44,414 nt of DNA from a bacterium (GTDB lineage: Bacteria; Actinomycetota; Acidimicrobiia; Acidimicrobiales; Bin134): assembly GCA_026709025.1 (NCBI GenBank), contig JAPOTT010000047.1:1-44414 (forward strand). The letters are read 5' to 3'. A program made the translations under genes and the position numbers. Below the pieces are notes generated by a model. That model was not told the DNA's origin. It saw only the letters and a program-made list of their open reading frames with translations, and did not search any database. Position 1 is the first letter of the stretch. Every line of letters starts with the position of its first letter. Below are positions 9,953-44,414 of the stretch, one piece after another.

Positions 9953-10690
9953 TTAGGGGGTTGGTACTTTGGTCCGGCTAACACGTACTACTTGCACAAA
10001 AGACCTTACCGCAGCGCGCGTGGCGCGCCACCCCAAGATGGACACCGTTCCGGTTGTGCGTATTTGGTGGGGAACCGGCACCTCAGCTAGGCGAACACCA
10101 GAGCGTGCGAGCATCCCGGCCAGGGCTACGTTTGGGGCGAAGATGTCTGCGGGTACTAAGGGCAAAAGGGGGGCCAGCGTGCTAGAACGCATCAGGCGAT
10201 AAGGGCAGTTCACATCGGCTAGCTGACACCCAAAAGCCACGCGGGTGGTGAGGCGAGCTAGCTGGGTGATGGCGCGTCTGCCCAACGATTGCTGCCTGCC
10301 GCTGCGGATGCCGATCACCGCATCTGTGGAGTGTCGTAGTTCCCACAGGCGGGCAAAGGAGCTGGCAGGCATTTCATCGTCAGAGTCTGTTTGAAACACC
10401 CACTCGGCGTTGTCTACCCCGTGTCGATAACCTGCCAAGATGGTGGGGCCGTGTCCCCTGTTGGGCTGTACATCTACCACTAGGCGGCTATGTTCGGCGG
10501 CAACCTCGCGCAGCTTGTGTTCTGAGGCATCGGTAGCACCATCTACGATAGCTAGAAGCTCGTAGTTCAGGTTTTGCGAGTCAAGCGAGTCGAGCATCGC
10601 CAGCCAATCTCTAGCTACCTGTCCGATTATCTCTTGCTCGTTGTATACGGGCATGATCACACAAAGGTCTAGTTGGCTATCGGGTTGCAT
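9953..10690 (-). CDS. Family 2 glycosyltransferase (dolichol-phosphate-mannose synthase-like)
   Basis: Inverting GT-A glycosyltransferase of family GT2 (245 aa), probably cytoplasmic and acting on a polyprenyl-phosphate or other membrane acceptor. The N-terminus LCVIMPVYNEQEIIGQVA is the nucleotide-binding start of GT2. LLAIVDGATDAS follows, then NRGHGPTILAGYRHG, and WVFQTDSDDEMP, which carries the metal-binding DxD. There is no C-terminal transmembrane GtrA-type extension. The ATG at 10690 opens directly with the fold. It stands alone on the minus strand, 233 bp upstream of parC and divergent from the acyl-CoA synthetase. Donor and acceptor cannot be read from the sequence; dolichol-phosphate-mannose synthase is the closest group I recognise. 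Confidence 0.8.
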   Translation of the reverse strand: MQPDSQLDLCVIMPVYNEQEIIGQVARDWLAMLDSLDSQNLNYELLAIVDGATDASEHKLREVAAEHSRLVVDVQPNRGHGPTILAGYRHGVDNAEWVFQTDSDDEMPASSFARLWELRHSTDAVIGIRSGRQQSLGRRAITQLARLTTRVAFGCQLADVNCPYRLMRSSTLAPLLPLVPADIFAPNVALAGMLARSGVRLAEVPVPHQIRTTGTVSILGWRATRAAVRSFVQVVRVSRTKVPTP

Positions 10691-32412: not shown

Positions 32413-32506
32413 GCCTTTGGGCGGTTGGCTAGCGAAAATTGTCTGGGAACCTTTAGCTGCTCTCATGTGTCGTAGCAGTAAATGTAATTTTCCTATGGAG
32501 GTTGAA

Positions 32507-32965
32507 ATGAAATTCGTACAAGCAATGGGGTTGGCAGTGGTCTTGTTGTTGTGTGTTGCGGCCTGCAATAACGACAGCCAAGACAATGCCTCATCTAGCG
32601 TTGCAACATCTGTGGTTGCTGAGGCCGAAGCTCCTGCGGCTACACAGACTTCTGTGGTTGAGCAGGCCCCAGAGCCGCCCCAAACAGAGATGGACGATCA
32701 AGTACTCTCCGATCAGATGCCATCGCTTGATCAGTTCCGTAACTTCGTAATGACCGGTTTGATTGAAGAGAACGGGGTGTCTGAGGCCAGCGCCCAATGC
32801 GTGGGCGACAACATTTCCGAAGATCTGTTCGAAAGATACATGGTTGCCGACTTAGACAATGCCGAGGCCGCTCAACCAGTCTTTGCCGAGCTATTTCAGA
32901 TTCAGTCCAGCTGCCTCACACCAGAAGAGCTAGAGAAGATGGGCATCGCCCCCGCAGACGGCTAA
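32507..32965 (+). CDS. Small lipoprotein, paralogue of the Cys-domain in the preceding gene
   Basis: Exported lipoprotein (152 aa): MKFVQAMGLAVVLLLCVAACNN is a signal peptide with lipobox Cys, followed by a Ser/Ala/Glu/Gln-rich stalk and one small domain at the end. The domain FVMTGLIEENGVSEASAQCVGDNISEDLFERYMVADLDNAEAAQPVFAELFQIQSSCLTPEELEKMG parallels the copies in the cyclophilin lipoprotein: SAQCVxDNxSxxL, then EAA(A/Q)P(I/V)FAEL, xIQSxC(F/L)T, EELE. The two conserved Cys suggest a disulphide. The start ATG at 32507 has GGAGG (32497-32501) five bases upstream; a longer frame to 32417 has none. Its last 103 bp are duplicated, with an early stop, at 33979-34081, on the far side of the toxin-antitoxin pair. 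Confidence 0.78.
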   Translation: MKFVQAMGLAVVLLLCVAACNNDSQDNASSSVATSVVAEAEAPAATQTSVVEQAPEPPQTEMDDQVLSDQMPSLDQFRNFVMTGLIEENGVSEASAQCVGDNISEDLFERYMVADLDNAEAAQPVFAELFQIQSSCLTPEELEKMGIAPADG

Positions 32966-33021: not shown

Positions 33022-33357
33022 TTAACTGTTTTTCGGGATGATTTGAATAGGGATTATGGTTTTTCCCTCGTCTCCTTCAAAAATAGCGTTAATCTGCAAT
33101 GAGGCACCAAGCCCCTGAACGTAGTTGTCGAGAGTGGAGACAAGGATGTCGTCTCCGCGCTCAAATTGGGAGACGGCAGACTGTGTGACTCCCATCGTGT
33201 CTGCTAGGTCGGCTTGAGACAGCTTAAGGATTCCACGGATTTCATGGAGTTCAATCTCGGCCAAGGTTTCCTTGCGAAGCTCCGCTAGTCGTTCTACGGC
33301 ACCGGGCCTAGCGATGATCTGTTCATGTAATTGACGGTAATTTTTTGTTGATGGCAT
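33022..33357 (-). CDS. higA: HigA-like antitoxin, XRE-type HTH protein
   Basis: Putative antitoxin (111 aa) encoded after its toxin, the usual HigBA order. Residues ~25-50 are a leading helix (ERLAELRKETLAEIELHEIRGILK). The HTH_3/XRE domain follows: LSQADLADTMGVTQSAVSQFERGDDILVSTLDNYVQGLG, with the recognition helix TQSAVSQFE. It would bind the toxin and autoregulate the promoter. I start at ATG 33357, which has AAGGAA about 11 bases upstream; the frame runs further to 33447 but would overlap the toxin. 31 bp separate it from the toxin stop. The second, broken pair at 41378-42080 has the same order and similar antitoxin sequence. Confidence 0.82.
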   Translation of the reverse strand: MPSTKNYRQLHEQIIARPGAVERLAELRKETLAEIELHEIRGILKLSQADLADTMGVTQSAVSQFERGDDILVSTLDNYVQGLGASLQINAIFEGDEGKTIIPIQIIPKNS

Positions 33358-33388
33358 TGGATTTGGTTCCTTGTAATTTTGTTTGCAG

Positions 33389-33763
33389 CTATTTTGAATT
33401 TGGGTTTTCAAGCAACCCTTCGGTGTACAGTTCTTCAATGTAAGCATCGTATAGATCGTCGGCTTGGGGGATTGCCAATTGGTACCAATCTTTCCACTGT
33501 CTAGACTTATTTCCTCCGAGCAACAAGATCACGTGTCTTCGCGGGTCGAATGCGAACAAGACCCGAAGGTCTCCATCCTTTGAGGCTCGTAGTTCTTTCA
33601 TGTTGGTGTGGCGAGACCCCTCTATCTTACCAACCACTGGTCGTTTGAGGTTTGGGCCGTGCTCTGCAAGCAGTAGCACCCTGTTGTCAAGCATTTCCTG
33701 TTGGGCGTGGGTGAGGCTGTCCCACCACGTCTGAAACTCGTAGGTGTACTCAATTTCCCACAC
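33389..33763 (-). CDS. higB: HigB/RelE-like toxin (phage-derived Gp49-like family)
   Basis: Predicted mRNA-interferase toxin of the HigB/Gp49-like family (PF05973 type; 124 aa). Conserved stretch: YTYEFQTWWDSLTHAQQEMLDNRVLLLAEHGPNLKRPVVGKIEGSRHTNMKELRASKDGDLRVLFAFDPRRHVILLLGGNKSRQWKDWYQLAIPQADDLYDAYI. The MKELR and R(V/I)LFAFD segments are the RelE-like core. GTG 33763 lies seven bases after a TATACT -10 box (33770-33775 on the minus strand), so the message is probably leaderless. A CTTAAC/TTAACT -35-like site lies about 17 bases further up. The pair sits between two copies of a 103-bp lipoprotein gene end and 0.9 kb upstream of the type I-G cas operon. Confidence 0.85.
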   Translation of the reverse strand: MWEIEYTYEFQTWWDSLTHAQQEMLDNRVLLLAEHGPNLKRPVVGKIEGSRHTNMKELRASKDGDLRVLFAFDPRRHVILLLGGNKSRQWKDWYQLAIPQADDLYDAYIEELYTEGLLENPNSK

Positions 33764-33869: not shown

Positions 33870-33978
33870 AACAAGCAGGTGGGAAGTCGCTTGGTCGAGG
33901 GTAGCTCCCCGACTTTCGTCAAACGTGGGTGTCTACAGTTATGCATTTACCCGTTGCTCGGGTGTTTATTTACGATCT

Positions 33979-34081
33979 CGAGGCCGCTCAACCAGTCTTT
34001 GCTGAGCTATTTCAGATTTAGTTCATCTGCCTCACACCAGAAGAGCTAGAGAAGATGGGCTTCGCCCCCGCAGACAGCTAA
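33979..34081 (+). pseudogene. Duplicated 3' end of the small lipoprotein gene (decayed)
   Basis: This 103-bp stretch aligns without gaps to 32863-32965, the last 34 codons including the stop of the upstream lipoprotein gene. It starts CGAGGCCGCTCAACCAGTCT and ends at an equivalent TAA. Differences include an early in-frame TAG (CAG ATT TAG) where the gene reads CAG ATT CAG. The two copies flank the HigBA-like pair as direct repeats, which points to insertion or duplication around that module. There is no start codon or ribosome-binding site, so this is a remnant. Confidence 0.85.
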
Positions 34082-34301: not shown

Positions 34302-34330
34302 TTGTAAGTTGGTGATGTCATTACTATACT
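34302..34330 (+). promoter_or_regulatory. Sigma-70-like promoter upstream of the crRNA-like unit
   Basis: TTGTAA (34302-34307), a 17-bp spacer and TATACT (34325-34330) form a good promoter on the plus strand. The expected transcription start is near 34337, which is the first base of the match to the pseudo-spacer. A second TATACT follows at 34354-34359, seven bases before an ATG (34366), but its -35 region (AACTTG, or TTGATT at 14-bp spacing) is poor. This region probably drives whatever the crRNA-like unit controls. Confidence 0.6.
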
Positions 34331-34333
34331 AAC

Positions 34334-34371
34334 TTGATTGGAGCTTTAGCGACTATACTAAACATATGGTA
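34334..34371 (+). promoter_or_regulatory. Predicted crRNA-like guide target site with TTG PAM
   Basis: TTG (34334-34336) precedes ATTGGAGCTTTAGCGACT (34337-34354). The spacer at 34535 begins ATTGGCGCTTTGGCGACT. Sixteen of 18 positions agree, and the two differences fall at positions 6 and 12; beyond 18 the match ends. TTN is, from memory, the PAM selected by the I-U/I-G Cas4-Cas1 of Geobacter. Binding here would cover the expected start site of the promoter at 34302-34330 and the second -10 box. Confidence 0.75.
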
Positions 34372-34377
34372 AGATGA
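34366..34377 (+). other. Three-codon minigene candidate (ATG GTA AGA TGA)
   Basis: A start, two sense codons (the last is AGA) and a stop lie seven bases after the second TATACT box, so a transcript could begin at the ATG itself. CreT toxins and phage bar-type minigenes work by trapping tRNAs for rare codons such as AGA, which makes this a candidate toxin element. An overlapping longer frame (34374-34640) runs through the crRNA-like unit and is not believed. This is a hypothesis from position only. Confidence 0.25.
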
Positions 34378-34498
34378 TCAACATGAACACTAATAACAAG
34401 CTAATCAAATGTATTCTTCTACGGCTTGTGGTGGAGCAAGCGGGGTCAGAGGTGTCTAATGCTATGGGTGCGGTGGTGAATCATGCTTCAAGTGGTTC

Positions 34499-34605
34499 AT
34501 TCGTTGGGGTTCTATCCTCAACCTTCATTGAAGAATTGGCGCTTTGGCGACTTCAACGCCATAGACCATATTGCGTCGGGTATCAAGCCCGGCCTTCGTT
34601 GCACC
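34499..34605 (+). ncRNA. crRNA-like solitary CRISPR unit (CreA/CreR-type guide RNA)
   Basis: Two degenerate 36-nt repeats flank a 35-nt spacer. Pseudo-repeat 1 (34499-34534) agrees with the array repeat at 24 of 36 positions without gaps, including CTTCATTGAAG at its 3' end. Pseudo-repeat 2 (34570-34605) agrees at 23 of 36, again ungapped. Both keep a stem in the same place: TTGGGG/CCTCAA with one wobble pair, and GTCGGG/CCCGGC with one wobble pair. The first ends in ATTGAAGA, matching the 8-nt tag ATTGAAGC expected after processing by a Cas6-type enzyme. The spacer (34535-34569) has an 18-nt partial match in promoter DNA at 34337. The unit lies 78 bp before csb1, whose downstream partner csb2 would supply the Cas6 activity. 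The array proper is at the other end of the locus, so this is not a stray array end. Confidence 0.8.
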
Positions 34606-34682
34606 GGTTGTTGACTAATTGTCACAGGGGCGTGAGATGATGTTGTCCACGTTAAAAAACTAACTTGAAAGGAGTTTGGTAA

Positions 34683-35903
34683 ATGTCTGAATTGACTTAC
34701 GAGAAGCTGCGTGATGCGGTGACGGGGGGAGCTGTAGCGTTACGTTCCCGAACGGAACTGCAACCGGCTGACGGGCCCGGAGGGAAGGTTTTCCCGCCGA
34801 CATACTCAGTCTCCTCTGGCCAGCACAAGTATGCGGTGGAAGTCCGCCAGGTGGGAGATCGAGAAGTGCAGACGGTGCTGTTGGACTCGGTGGCCTCACA
34901 GGCAAACCGTGCCGAGTTGGCTCTGCTTGAGGGCTGGGAGTCTGGTAATTTGAATTTTCCCGTGCCTTACGTGGATTTCTCAACCGAGAACGGCGAGTTC
35001 GATGACATCGGCCGATTGACGGTGCTTGAGACCCCCCACCGGTTGGCCGATGCTATTTTCAGAGACAGCTTGCTTGATGGCACACTGTTCCGGCTGTCGG
35101 AGATGGGTCGAGCTATTACAGATGCTCAACCTCGCAACGCCACGGCCTTGTTCCGTTACGCTCCTACCGCGTTGTTATTCGGTCAGTGGGATTCCACCGG
35201 CCCCAAGGGTGGTCTAGGGTCAAAGTTTCAGCGGGCCTACGTGTCAGAGATCGTTGGCCACGATGTGCAGGTCGGCCGCAAGGTAGGCAGCCGGCTGGAC
35301 CCGCTTCAGATTGAACGTGAGGCAGCAGTGGCATACGAACATAAAGACCCGAAGCAGCGCTGGACATTAGATGAAGCCGAAGCGGTAGTGCAGAAGGGTA
35401 AGCCTAAAGTAGTTGGAGGTGATGGTCGTCCATCTGAGATCAACCACAGCAACATCCCTCCCACCATTGACGAAACAGCGGGCGGTGTAACCATTTCAGC
35501 AGCGGTGCAGACGACAGTGATCTCGTTGGCGGCATTGCGACGTTTGCGCTTTGCCAGCCACGGTCGAGATGTCGAAACTGCGGCCCGAACTGCTGTCGCC
35601 GCGCTCGGCATAGCTGCCGTTGTCCTCCAACATGAGATGGATCACGACCTGCGCTCTCGGTGTTTGCTGATACCCCAGCATTCGCCCCAGATTGAGTTGG
35701 TCGGTCGGGATGGCTCGGCCCCAGAAAGCGTCGATATCGATCGCAACAGTGTTTCGCAGATCTTGAGTCAAGCTGCTCAAGCATCATCTGGGCTGGGCTT
35801 GGCATGGGAAACTGCCCAGATCAAGCTTCAGCCAGCCCCCAAGCTGTTGGAGTTACTGCGCCGCAGTCGTGAAGTTTCTGCCCGCGAGACACCGGAGGCA
35901 TGA
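34683..35903 (+). CDS. csb1: Type I-G Cas7 (Csb1, GSU0053 family)
   Basis: Backbone subunit of the type I-G (I-U) Cascade, which polymerises along the crRNA spacer (406 aa). It opens MSELTYEKLRDAVTGGAVALRSRTELQPADGPGGKVFPPTY, then VLLDSVASQANRAELALLEGW, RLADAIFRDSLLDG and PTALLFGQWDSTGPKGGLGSKFQRAYVSEI, the Csb1 signature. RLRFASHGRDVETAARTAVAALGIAA lies in the C-terminal third. ATG 34683 has AAAGGAG eight bases upstream. The bases just before that site (ACTAACTTG, 34659-34667) repeat the nine bases in front of the crRNA-like unit's target. First gene of a tight operon, three bases before csb2. Confidence 0.9.
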   Translation: MSELTYEKLRDAVTGGAVALRSRTELQPADGPGGKVFPPTYSVSSGQHKYAVEVRQVGDREVQTVLLDSVASQANRAELALLEGWESGNLNFPVPYVDFSTENGEFDDIGRLTVLETPHRLADAIFRDSLLDGTLFRLSEMGRAITDAQPRNATALFRYAPTALLFGQWDSTGPKGGLGSKFQRAYVSEIVGHDVQVGRKVGSRLDPLQIEREAAVAYEHKDPKQRWTLDEAEAVVQKGKPKVVGGDGRPSEINHSNIPPTIDETAGGVTISAAVQTTVISLAALRRLRFASHGRDVETAARTAVAALGIAAVVLQHEMDHDLRSRCLLIPQHSPQIELVGRDGSAPESVDIDRNSVSQILSQAAQASSGLGLAWETAQIKLQPAPKLLELLRRSREVSARETPEA

Positions 35904-41377: not shown

Positions 41378-41752
41378 ATGGCTTGGGTAGTCAATGGCAC
41401 TGATGAGTTTGCTGCTTGGTTTGGTGAACTCAGTGAATCTCAACGGGATGCAGTGATTGCAGTTGTAGAACTTCTTGCTGAGTATGGCCCTAGCTTAGAT
41501 CGACCATTTGTAGACCGTATTAAAGGATCAAAGTATCACAACATGAAAGAGCAAAGACCTCGTGGTGCTGCTAGGAATATTCGCATCTTGTTTATTTTTG
41601 ATCTTCGACGCGAGGCAATGCTTGTAGTGGGGGGAGACAAGAGCGATCAATGGGAGCGATGGTAGAGCCGAGCCATTCCTCGTGCCGATCTGCTCTATGG
41701 GGAGTATTTGGATGAGTTAGTCGCTGAGAAATCAATTGAAGACATCAATTAA
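41378..41752 (+). pseudogene. HigB/RelE-like toxin gene interrupted by an in-frame TAG
   Basis: Homologue of the toxin at 33389-33763, inside the cas operon. The first 95 residues are intact: FAAWFGELSESQRDAVIAVVELLAEYGPSLDRPFVDRIKGSKYHNMKEQRPRGAARNIRILFIFDLRREAMLVVGGDKSDQWERW. A TAG (41663-41665) then stands where the intact toxin has Tyr (QWKDWYQLAIP). In the same frame the sequence continues SRAIPRADLLYGEYLDELVAEK and ends at TAA 41752. Reading through gives 124 residues, exactly the length of the intact homologue. So this is one nonsense mutation in an otherwise undamaged gene. The short product may be inactive, or may be kept as a harmless partner of the antitoxin. Confidence 0.85.
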
Positions 41753-41765
41753 AAAGGAGACACAC

Positions 41766-42080
41766 ATGGGGTATCATAATTTTAACGACATTGTTGGGGA
41801 GATTAGCCTTGAGCGTCGTGCTCGCATTGAAGCGCTGAAGCAGGAAGCTAGAGCTGATGCTGTGGCGTTCAACTTGGCAGAGTTACGCCGCCACCGTGAG
41901 ATGACTCAGGTTGAGTTAGCTCAGTGCCTAGAGCGAACCCAAGCTTCAGTCTCGGCTATGGAATCAGCAGGTGATAATTTGCTGTCTACATATCGTTCAG
42001 TTATAGAGAGCTTAGGCGGTCACCTTGAGATGGTGGCTGTCTTTGATAATGAGAGAGTAGTGCTCCCCGGTAGTAGCTAA
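41766..42080 (+). CDS. HigA-like antitoxin, XRE-type HTH protein (inside cas operon)
   Basis: Putative antitoxin of the broken toxin just upstream (104 aa). The leading helix SLERRARIEALKQEARADAVAFNLAELRRH resembles that of the antitoxin at 33022. The HTH is MTQVELAQCLERTQASVSAMESAGDNLLSTYRSVIESLGGHLEMVAVF. ATG 41766 has AAGGAG (41754-41759) six bases upstream; 13 bases separate it from the end of the toxin frame. It is intact although its toxin is cut short. Lying between the effector and adaptation parts of the CRISPR locus, it could also regulate cas4-cas1-cas2 transcription, but that is guesswork. Confidence 0.8.
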   Translation: MGYHNFNDIVGEISLERRARIEALKQEARADAVAFNLAELRRHREMTQVELAQCLERTQASVSAMESAGDNLLSTYRSVIESLGGHLEMVAVFDNERVVLPGSS

Positions 42081-42181
42081 GAAAATATTACTTCTAGTTG
42101 ATGATTTGGTATTCAGTCAGAGGTAGTTCAGTAACTAGGATAACTATTGTATGTGCAGTTTCGCAGAGGTGAGTGGGTTTC

Positions 42182-43822
42182 GTGAGCGATGTACCTGAAC
42201 TCATTCCAGCCAGAATGGTTAACGAGTTTGAGTACTGTCAAAGGCTGTTTTATCTAGAATGGGTTCAGTCCCGCTTTGAGGATAATCCCGACACTGTGGA
42301 AGGCCGTTATGTGCATCGCAACGTGGATGCAGGTGGCGGGCGTATGGAAGATCCAGATGAGGAGAGTCCAGTACGGAAGGCCAAGTCAGTCACTATTAGT
42401 TCCGAGAGCTTGGGGCTGATCGCCAAAGCAGACATTATTGAGGGTCGGGGGAATAAGGTCACTCCGGTTGAGGTAAAGCGAGGAAGGCCACCGAAGCATG
42501 GCCCGGCGTGGTCTCCTGAGTTAGTCCAGATATGTGCCATTGGGCTCATACTTCAGGACAACGGATATGACTGTTCGGAGGGTCAGATCTTCTTTGCCGA
42601 ATCGCGTGAGCGCGTCAAAGTGCCTTTTGACGAAAAGCTTGTGTGGCAGACGTTGAACGTGGTTAGAGGTATTAAAGAGGTTGCAAGTTCTGCGGATCCG
42701 CCACCTCCACTACTTGACAGTCCTAAGTGCCCCAGGTGTTCTGTGGTAGGCATCTGCTTGCCTGACGAGACAAATCTTCTGGCTGACCGTTCGGATGTTC
42801 CGCCCCGTCGTTTGACTCCTAGAGATTCCGCGGCCCGACCCCTGTATGTAACTGAGCAGGGTACAAAGATTGGGGTCAGAAAGGGGCGGGTTACGGTTTC
42901 TCAGCATAAGGAAGTTCTCCAAGAAGTCAGGATGATCGATGTATCTCAGGTGTCAATATACGGAAATGTGCAGATTAGTTCACAGGCGATGAGAGCGATG
43001 TTTAGTCAGCAGGTTCCAGTTTGCTGGTTTTCCTATGGAGGGTGGTTCCAAGGCATTGCAAATGGGCTTCCTTCTAAGCATGTTGATCTTCGCAGGCGCC
43101 AAGTTGCTATTGCAGCGCAGGCGGGCCTGCCGATTGCCCGGAAGATGATCGAGGGCAAGATCAGAAACTCGAGGACACTGCTGCGGCGAAATTCGCGAAA
43201 TGATGTCAAGCCGATTTTGGAGCAGTTGAAGTCGACTGCCGACCAGACAGCAGAAGTGGACAGTGTGGAATCTCTACTTGGTGTAGAGGGTGTGGCAGCT
43301 CGGCTCTATTTCTCGCGTTTCTCGGCGATGCTGAAAGATGACTTGTTGGGAACCTTCGACTTTCAAGGGCGAAACAGAAGACCTCCTCGTGATCCGATCA
43401 ATTGTCTGCTCTCTTACGTATATTCTTTATTGACCAAGGATCTCACCGCGGTAGCGCTAGCTGTCGGCTTTGATCCCTACTTAGGAGTCTTCCACAAGCC
43501 TAGGTTTGGTCGCCCGGCGCTAGCCCTTGACCTTGCTGAGGAGTTCCGCCCCCTCGTTGCCGACTCTGTAGTGGTTAACGTTATTAATAACGGCGAGACT
43601 CAGGAGAATGCGTTCATAGTAAGAGCTCAGGGGGTTGCTTTGACGCAGCAAGGGCGCCGGTCGGTCATCGCTGCTTATGAGCGCCGTCTGGATCAAGAGG
43701 TCACTCATCCTGTGTATGGGTACAAGATCACCTATCGCCGTGTCCTTGAAGTGCAGGCACGGATGTTGGGCTCGTACTTGCTTGGTGAGATCCCCGACTA
43801 TGTACCGTTCATGACGAGGTGA
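42182..43822 (+). CDS. cas4-cas1: Cas4-Cas1 fusion (type I-G adaptation nuclease-integrase)
   Basis: Single-chain adaptation protein (546 aa from this start). The Cas4 part (1 to ~200) selects and trims PAM-containing prespacers; the Cas1 part integrates them with Cas2. Cas4: IPARMVNEFEYCQRLFYLEW (first Cys), LIAKADIIE, VTPVEVKRGRPPK (PD-ExK Glu/Lys), QICAIGLILQDNGYDC, then CPRCSVVGIC, the other three Fe-S ligands. Cas1: LYVTEQGTKIGVRKGRVTV, IDVSQVSIYGNVQISSQAM, LLGVEGVAARLYFSRF (catalytic Glu) and VFHKPRFGRPALALDLAEEFRPLVAD (His, Glu/Asp). I use GTG 42182, nine bases after AGAGGTGA; GTG 42173 is too close to that site. Cas4-Cas1 fusions are a hallmark of I-G. Confidence 0.93.
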   Translation: MSDVPELIPARMVNEFEYCQRLFYLEWVQSRFEDNPDTVEGRYVHRNVDAGGGRMEDPDEESPVRKAKSVTISSESLGLIAKADIIEGRGNKVTPVEVKRGRPPKHGPAWSPELVQICAIGLILQDNGYDCSEGQIFFAESRERVKVPFDEKLVWQTLNVVRGIKEVASSADPPPPLLDSPKCPRCSVVGICLPDETNLLADRSDVPPRRLTPRDSAARPLYVTEQGTKIGVRKGRVTVSQHKEVLQEVRMIDVSQVSIYGNVQISSQAMRAMFSQQVPVCWFSYGGWFQGIANGLPSKHVDLRRRQVAIAAQAGLPIARKMIEGKIRNSRTLLRRNSRNDVKPILEQLKSTADQTAEVDSVESLLGVEGVAARLYFSRFSAMLKDDLLGTFDFQGRNRRPPRDPINCLLSYVYSLLTKDLTAVALAVGFDPYLGVFHKPRFGRPALALDLAEEFRPLVADSVVVNVINNGETQENAFIVRAQGVALTQQGRRSVIAAYERRLDQEVTHPVYGYKITYRRVLEVQARMLGSYLLGEIPDYVPFMTR

Positions 43823-44294: not shown

Positions 44295-44414
44295 GTTCGG
44301 GGGGTTATTAAACCCCCCCTTCATTGAAGCTGGAGTTTGAGCGGCATATATCACGCTCGTAATGCTGTTCGGGGGGTTATTAAACCCCCCCTTCATTGAA
44401 GCTGTGGAGTGGGA
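44295..44414 (+). CRISPR. Type I-G CRISPR array, first two repeats (cut by window end)
   Basis: Two identical 36-nt repeats at 44295-44330 and 44367-44402 flank a 36-nt spacer (44331-44366), and a second spacer begins at 44403. The repeat has an 8-bp stem GGGGGGTT/AACCCCCC with loop ATTA (hence GTTC-stem-CTTC) and ends in ATTGAAGC, the expected 8-nt crRNA tag. CTTC-ATT-GAAG is a second small hairpin at the 3' end. The array lies after cas2 in the orientation of the operon. Only the leader-proximal, most recently acquired end is visible. I recognise no source for the spacer. Confidence 0.95.

Follow-up and report, generated by a model that had tools for sequence, protein, structure and literature searches.

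A solitary crRNA-like unit with a PAM-flanked self-target beside a type I-G cas operon

Directly ahead of a type I-G cas operon in an acidimicrobial genome lies a solitary mini-CRISPR in which two degenerate repeats enclose a single spacer, and this spacer partly matches a PAM-flanked site at a nearby predicted promoter, P1. We think it quite probable that this is a one-spacer CRISPR, now degenerated, and that it supplies a crRNA-like guide with which the I-G Cascade represses P1, as in the CreA/CreR class. By its sequence, the unit appears to be of the creA/creR kind in a CRISPR subtype for which we know of no described case. CreTA has been characterized for types I-B and I-F in the open literature (PMC8501985, PMC10097628), and a review from 2025 raises the question of whether other CRISPR types have comparable mechanisms (PMC12737573). 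No I-G example of CreTA or CreR was found in the open literature, a scope that leaves out the primary CreR and first CreTA papers, which may hold one.

The unit and its surroundings

The window (the whole stretch of DNA analyzed, 44,414 nt) contains a complete type I-G cas operon, which curated NCBI models confirm as the subtype named in the preliminary description, and the start of a CRISPR array:

34683-35903, + strand: csb1 (cas7g), TIGR02570
35907-37586, + strand: csb2, a Cas5-Cas6 fusion and the expected processing nuclease, TIGR02165
37579-40338, + strand: cas3g, TIGR02621
40335-41240, + strand: I-G protein adjoining cas3, NF049934 "Cas3-extension family", by position a candidate for the large subunit
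42173-43822, + strand: cas4-cas1 fusion, NF049935
43826-44125, + strand: cas2, TIGR01573
44295-44414, + strand: start of the CRISPR array, with a 36-nt repeat, cut by the contig end

The array repeat, GTTCGGGGGGTTATTAAACCCCCCCTTCATTGAAGC, stands at 44295 and 44367, and 10 further exact copies lie on another contig. The I-G Cascade is minimal, without Cas11 and without Cas5 at the 5′ end of the crRNA. Upstream of csb1, the solitary unit reads as follows:

34499-34534, + strand: pseudo-repeat 1 (psiR1), ATTCGTTGGGGTTCTATCCTCAACCTTCATTGAAGA, with a hairpin and the 8-nt handle ATTGAAGA; 24/36 matches to the array repeat
34535-34569, + strand: psi-spacer (guide), 35 nt
34570-34605, + strand: pseudo-repeat 2 (psiR2), ATTGCGTCGGGTATCAAGCCCGGCCTTCGTTGCACC, with a hairpin and a degenerate 3′ tag; 23/36 matches to the array repeat

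These two ungapped 36-nt pseudo-repeats and the 35-nt spacer between them agree exactly, in coordinates and in counts, with the preliminary description, which was also correct in placing the unit 9.7 kb from the array and in calling the 3′ tag of psiR1 conserved (ATTGAAGA against ATTGAAGC). Apart from the array itself, psiR1 and psiR2 are the two best ungapped repeat matches in the window. Within the 900 nt upstream of csb1, the best pair at array spacing reaches a score of 47, as compared with a mean of 32.7 (sd 1.5, maximum 41) in 3000 first-order Markov shuffles of the same region, and the single-repeat match of 24 is never reached in these shuffles (maximum 22). The unit exceeds chance. 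Both hairpins had been described as kept in place. This holds for psiR1, whose hairpin is in the same register as that of the array repeat and whose stem has changed on both sides, from G–C to T–A and from T–A to G–C; its folding energy of −10.9 kcal/mol is equally low in 0.7% of shuffles. The hairpin of psiR2 is weaker evidence and, on energy alone, less sure, with 9% of shuffles folding as low. The unit thereby has the anatomy of creA, with two degenerate and divergent repeats, one psi-spacer, and a retained hairpin and 8-nt handle, and intact type I effector genes adjoin it. An 88-aa ORF that runs through the unit (34374-34640) has no Pfam match and was set aside as being of chance length.

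The surrounding region holds further features. A HigBA-like toxin–antitoxin pair (Gp49/DUF891, PF05973, and an HTH protein) occupies 41378-42080, between the I-G interference and adaptation genes, and a second such pair (PF05973 and HTH_3; 33022-33763, − strand) lies just upstream of the mini-CRISPR unit on the opposite strand. The C-terminal part of the ORF at 32417-32965 is partially duplicated at 33950-34065 (EAAQPVFAELFQI...CLTPEELEKMGFAPADS). A reading of the segment 33930-34065 as a decayed cas2 with an old leader was rejected: it is the partial copy of that ORF, and the leader comparison came up empty.

The self-target at P1

Between this segment and csb1, we find or predict the following features around the unit:

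34302-34330, + strand: predicted promoter P1, TTGTAA-N17-TATACT, start at about 34337 (9/12 in a consensus scan)
34334-34336, + strand: PAM of the self-target, TTG (TTN)
34337-34371, + strand: protospacer (self-target), with the seed match at 34337-34354 (16/18)
34337-34498, + strand: RNA expected from P1 ahead of the unit, a candidate creT proposed from P1 and the layout
34620-34641, + strand: P2, the likely cas promoter, TGTCAC-N10-GATGAT, downstream of the unit

The psi-spacer has one standout match within the window, at 34337-34354 (target ATTGGaGCTTTaGCGACT, guide ATTGGcGCTTTgGCGACT), with TTG on its 5′ side. This target, which the preliminary description lacked, is the strongest evidence for the unit. 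Within the first 18 positions the guide and target differ at 6 and 12 only, and when these two are left free the site is the sole exact match in the 2.2-Mb genome. Among 2000 shuffled seeds, none reaches even 14/18 at a site with a TT PAM when the same 900-nt region ahead of csb1 is scanned. Past position 18, only 1 of 17 positions matches, so the pair is neither a duplication nor the product of a normally acquired spacer. According to the structural study of the I-G Cascade, pairing follows a 5+1 pattern in which each sixth base flips out; Csb2 leaves an 8-nt handle, and the PAM in vivo is TTN (PMC9638904). The protospacer begins at the predicted +1 of P1, about 160 nt upstream of the unit. 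As in creA, the psi-spacer is complementary in part to a site that has a PAM and lies at a predicted promoter close by; the PAM for this species is taken from other I-G systems. P1 itself is a consensus match of a quality expected 1.0 times in shuffles, which says nothing on its activity. These sequence features lend good support to the earlier proposal of a CreA/CreR-like regulatory guide for the I-G effector: a PAM-flanked self-target lies at a nearby predicted promoter, the mismatches are confined to Cascade flip-out positions, and the same signature recurs in other I-G loci.

A mechanism can be proposed on this basis. The psi-repeats in a transcript of the unit would be cut by Csb2, leaving the 8-nt handle ATTGAAGA, and the processed small RNA would be expected to begin ATTGAAGAATTGGCG. 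The guide would load into the I-G Cascade and pair through positions 1-18 with the TTG-flanked site at the start of P1, the flipped-out bases 6 and 12 excepted. Because pairing stops at position 18, Cascade would then sit on P1 and block transcription instead of cutting the chromosome.

The signature at other type I-G loci

Loss of the pseudo-repeats from relatives that keep the cas genes, which had been named as a refutation of a regulatory unit, is what we observe in the five closest csb1 relatives (84-88% identical): none of them has the unit, and no alignment to the window is obtained for their upstream regions. Among more distant relatives there are units that have the same anatomy and a different sequence. 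The absence from the five closest indicates that the unit turns over fast; CreTA units of like anatomy and differing sequence among relatives are known (PMC8501985). Searching for the unit upstream of csb1 in related I-G loci, as had been suggested, gave two outcomes. When pseudo-repeats were sought by identity to each locus's own repeat, only the window rose above shuffles on the + strand, and the search was therefore driven by the handle, seed and PAM, which did recover matches. This signature consists of an I-G-like 8-nt handle followed by an 18-nt seed with a matching site close by. When a TT PAM was demanded, 38 loci yielded 7 matches (one of them a tandem repeat) against 0 in five shuffles of all loci, and a control on coding windows yielded 2 in 302. 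With no PAM requirement, 60 loci yielded 11 TT-preceded matches upstream of csb1, whereas 20 shuffle sets averaged 1.15. Some of the matches in relatives are weak, and about one TT-PAM match is expected by chance.

The mismatches in these matches are in phase with the flipped-out bases. Across 12 independent matches, 27 of 50 mismatches fall at positions 6, 12 or 18, where 8.3 are expected (P about 2e-9). The matches were picked on score and PAM, and mismatch phase was not used, except that the scan that gave L149 and L150 also let in matches whose core was perfect with position 6 disregarded; both loci qualified by score as well. Two loci from looser scans, L073 and L074, were left out of this count. 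The handle is identical to that of the locus's own array in L117, L119, L115, L068 and L073, and a hairpin, which was no selection criterion, stands at the expected place of psiR2 in L081, L082, L064, L074 and L149. The phase of 6, 12 and 18 offers a practical, repeat-independent way to find such guides. A secondary peak comes from position 3, where the guides of L082, L064, L119 and L115 begin TAG and their targets TAT.

Several candidates were discarded: L080 as a tandem repeat, L104 for an array upstream, and L118 as mis-oriented in one scan. L067 (whose handle is unlike its own repeat), L093 and L095 were kept as weak matches only, and further actinobacterial loci gave 0 TT-PAM matches. 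Upstream of csb1 we also noted, at L087 (250-357), a 37-nt direct repeat in two copies about 70 nt apart that is unlike I-G repeats and, at L094 on the minus strand, a solitary repeat-like palindrome, GTCACGCCGGACAATTGTCCGGCACTCCACGGTGCC, with 26/36 matches to that locus's own array repeat.

Three of the loci share a conserved small ORF of about 45-67 aa between the guide target and csb1 (positions relative to csb1):

L117, −309 to −105: small ORF
L119, −291 to −117: small ORF
L115, −291 to −51: small ORF

The ORF carries the motif MGF[IV]PR..S.G.L...YW.WR.HK.ED and is found in only four genomes of the class (E below 1e-13); it has no Pfam match and no homologue in the window. We regard it as a candidate guide-repressed toxin or regulator. 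In L081, L082, L064 and L068, an ORF starts beside the target and the guide diverges from it.

The signature extends beyond the class to two plasmid-borne loci:

L150, 10267-10560, Thermus thermophilus JL-18 plasmid pTTJL1802: CreR-like unit of one psi-repeat, a guide, and a GC-rich inverted repeat with a T-run; target beside the csb1 −35
L149, about 10420-10550, Methylomagnum ishizawai plasmid: two-repeat unit (psiR1-35 nt-psiR2) with a self-target, upstream of a disrupted csb1

In the Thermus unit, the last 9 nt ahead of the guide (CGTTGCAGG) are identical to its own array repeat, and the seed pairs with a TTC-flanked site over positions 1-15, save 6 and 12. The target abuts the csb1 promoter TTGACA-N17-TATGCT, and as in CreR the guide of JL-18 is thus aimed at a cas promoter. 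The region occurs on 14 Thermus plasmids, with the guide-target match intact in three of the five compared. Position 11 has changed from T to C in both the guide and the target of T. thermophilus HB5018/TF19; the PAM and −35 have been lost there by deletion, and we do not count this double change as proof of co-evolution. The Methylomagnum target is TTG-flanked and matches at 13/18, with mismatches at 6, 8, 12, 15 and 18. On sequence evidence from Acidimicrobiia, Thermus and Methylomagnum, subtype I-G can be added to those with guides of the CreA/CreR class. T. thermophilus is a tractable organism that makes this reading testable and lets one ask whether loss of the I-G effector, as by an anti-CRISPR, is sensed.

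The repressed product, known systems and rival explanations

What P1 would drive depends on where the cas genes have their promoter. A TGTCAC box (TGTCAT in some) lies 50-100 nt upstream of csb1 in most relatives, with 0.06 expected per 125 nt, and it is also present in some relatives without the unit. Together with the −10-like hexamer, read by eye at N10 after the box, the conserved TGTCAC(A) box is likely the I-G cas promoter of the clade, or an operator. In the window this conserved box stands between the unit and csb1, which makes it probable that csb1 is served by a promoter of its own, P2, and that P1 is not the main cas promoter; P1 and the unit resemble a cassette placed ahead of P2.

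We see about an even chance that the product of P1 is a small toxic RNA or mini-ORF (about 34337-34498) silenced by the guide, such that loss of Cascade would harm the cell, as in CreTA. The cassette-like arrangement upstream of a separate cas promoter fits this reading, as does the finding that relatives without the unit also lack the P1 region. The small-ORF loci are consistent with it as well, their targets overlapping the promoter region of the ORF (which has a strong Shine-Dalgarno sequence in L117), and in L081, L082, L064 and L068 the guide and downstream ORF diverge as in the Acinetobacter I-F CreTA. The toxin, however, is only a candidate. The P1 transcript of about 160 nt has no clear mini-ORF with a Shine-Dalgarno sequence, ATG GTA AGA TGA at 34366-34377 being the candidate, and the small ORF of the relatives has no known domain. 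A less probable reading, which we consider possible but doubtful, takes P1 as the cas promoter: its transcript would carry the guide and read on into csb1, and Cascade with the guide would shut P1 when effector is plentiful and crRNA scarce, as in CreR. The order of P1, unit and csb1 on one strand agrees with this, no terminator having been found between the P1 transcript and the cas genes. So does L073, where the target is overlapped by a promoter (TTGACA-N17-TAATCT) and immediately followed by the unit; csb1 begins there about 44 nt past the psi-spacer, too close for a toxin to fit in. T. thermophilus, with its target directly next to the −35 of the csb1 promoter, also agrees. Against it stands the TGTCAC-N10 box downstream of the unit, found upstream of csb1 in most relatives too. 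For the window we lean toward the CreTA-like reading, since csb1 seems to have its own conserved promoter and the unit-less relatives lack the P1 region too. L117, L119 and L115, with L081, L082, L064 and L068, favor a separate repressed product for the window's clade, whereas L073 and T. thermophilus favor cas autorepression.

CreTA has been described in type I-F (Acinetobacter WCHA45) and type I-B (Haloarcula, Halobacterium) (PMC10097628, PMC8501985). The window shares with it two divergent degenerate repeats, an 8-nt handle, and a single psi-spacer whose partial match lies within the cas locus, beside a PAM and at a nearby promoter. The I-F CreA pairs with its target except at 6, 11 and 18 (PMC10097628), so both guides are unpaired at position 6. 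The window differs in its I-G effector, which has Csb2 in place of a stand-alone Cas6 and no Cas11, in a toxin that is only a candidate, and in a psi-spacer of 35 nt versus 20 nt in the I-F CreTA. CreR, which is cas autorepression in type I and V-A (review PMC12737573), likewise has its guide in a mini-CRISPR next to the cas operon and directs it against a promoter upstream, and the T. thermophilus I-G unit does target the csb1 promoter. In the window, the promoter targeted is probably not the conserved cas promoter, P2 being nearer csb1; I-G goes unnamed for CreR in the open literature we found, a scope without the primary paper. In CrePA, the guide represses a protein toxin (PMC12737573). 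The target in L117, L119 and L115, overlapping the promoter region of the conserved small ORF, is similar, but this ORF has no known domain and its toxicity is putative. Somewhat short of an even bet, in our judgment, is the broader idea that I-G makes wide use of self-targeting, crRNA-like guides to switch transcription, with three layouts, acting on a separate small RNA (the window), a conserved small protein gene (L117, L119 and L115) or the cas promoter (T. thermophilus). If true, this would add a new subtype branch to the CreA/CreR class, and one clade would have a small protein under Cascade repression that had not been described before, possibly a toxin.

Readings that give the unit no regulatory role fare less well. 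A decayed, functionless remnant of a second array would explain the degenerate repeats and the absence from the closest relatives, and is nonetheless unlikely: the psiR1 hairpin has been preserved through changes on both sides, and a PAM-flanked target with mismatches at 6 and 12 only, recurring in other loci, is unexpected for debris. We give very little credence to a self spacer acquired by accident (autoimmunity) and degraded later. Its chromosomal match does have a PAM, but an acquired spacer would match over its full length, not merely to position 18, and the repeats are degenerate. Equally improbable is an origin from a mobile element that left the repeats behind as a decoy or anti-CRISPR. 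Racrs are phage-encoded solitary repeats that act as repeat mimics (PMC10651486), and the unit resembles them in its solitary degenerate repeats; it differs in lying in the host chromosome, between P1 and the cas operon, with a matched self-target of which a decoy has no need.
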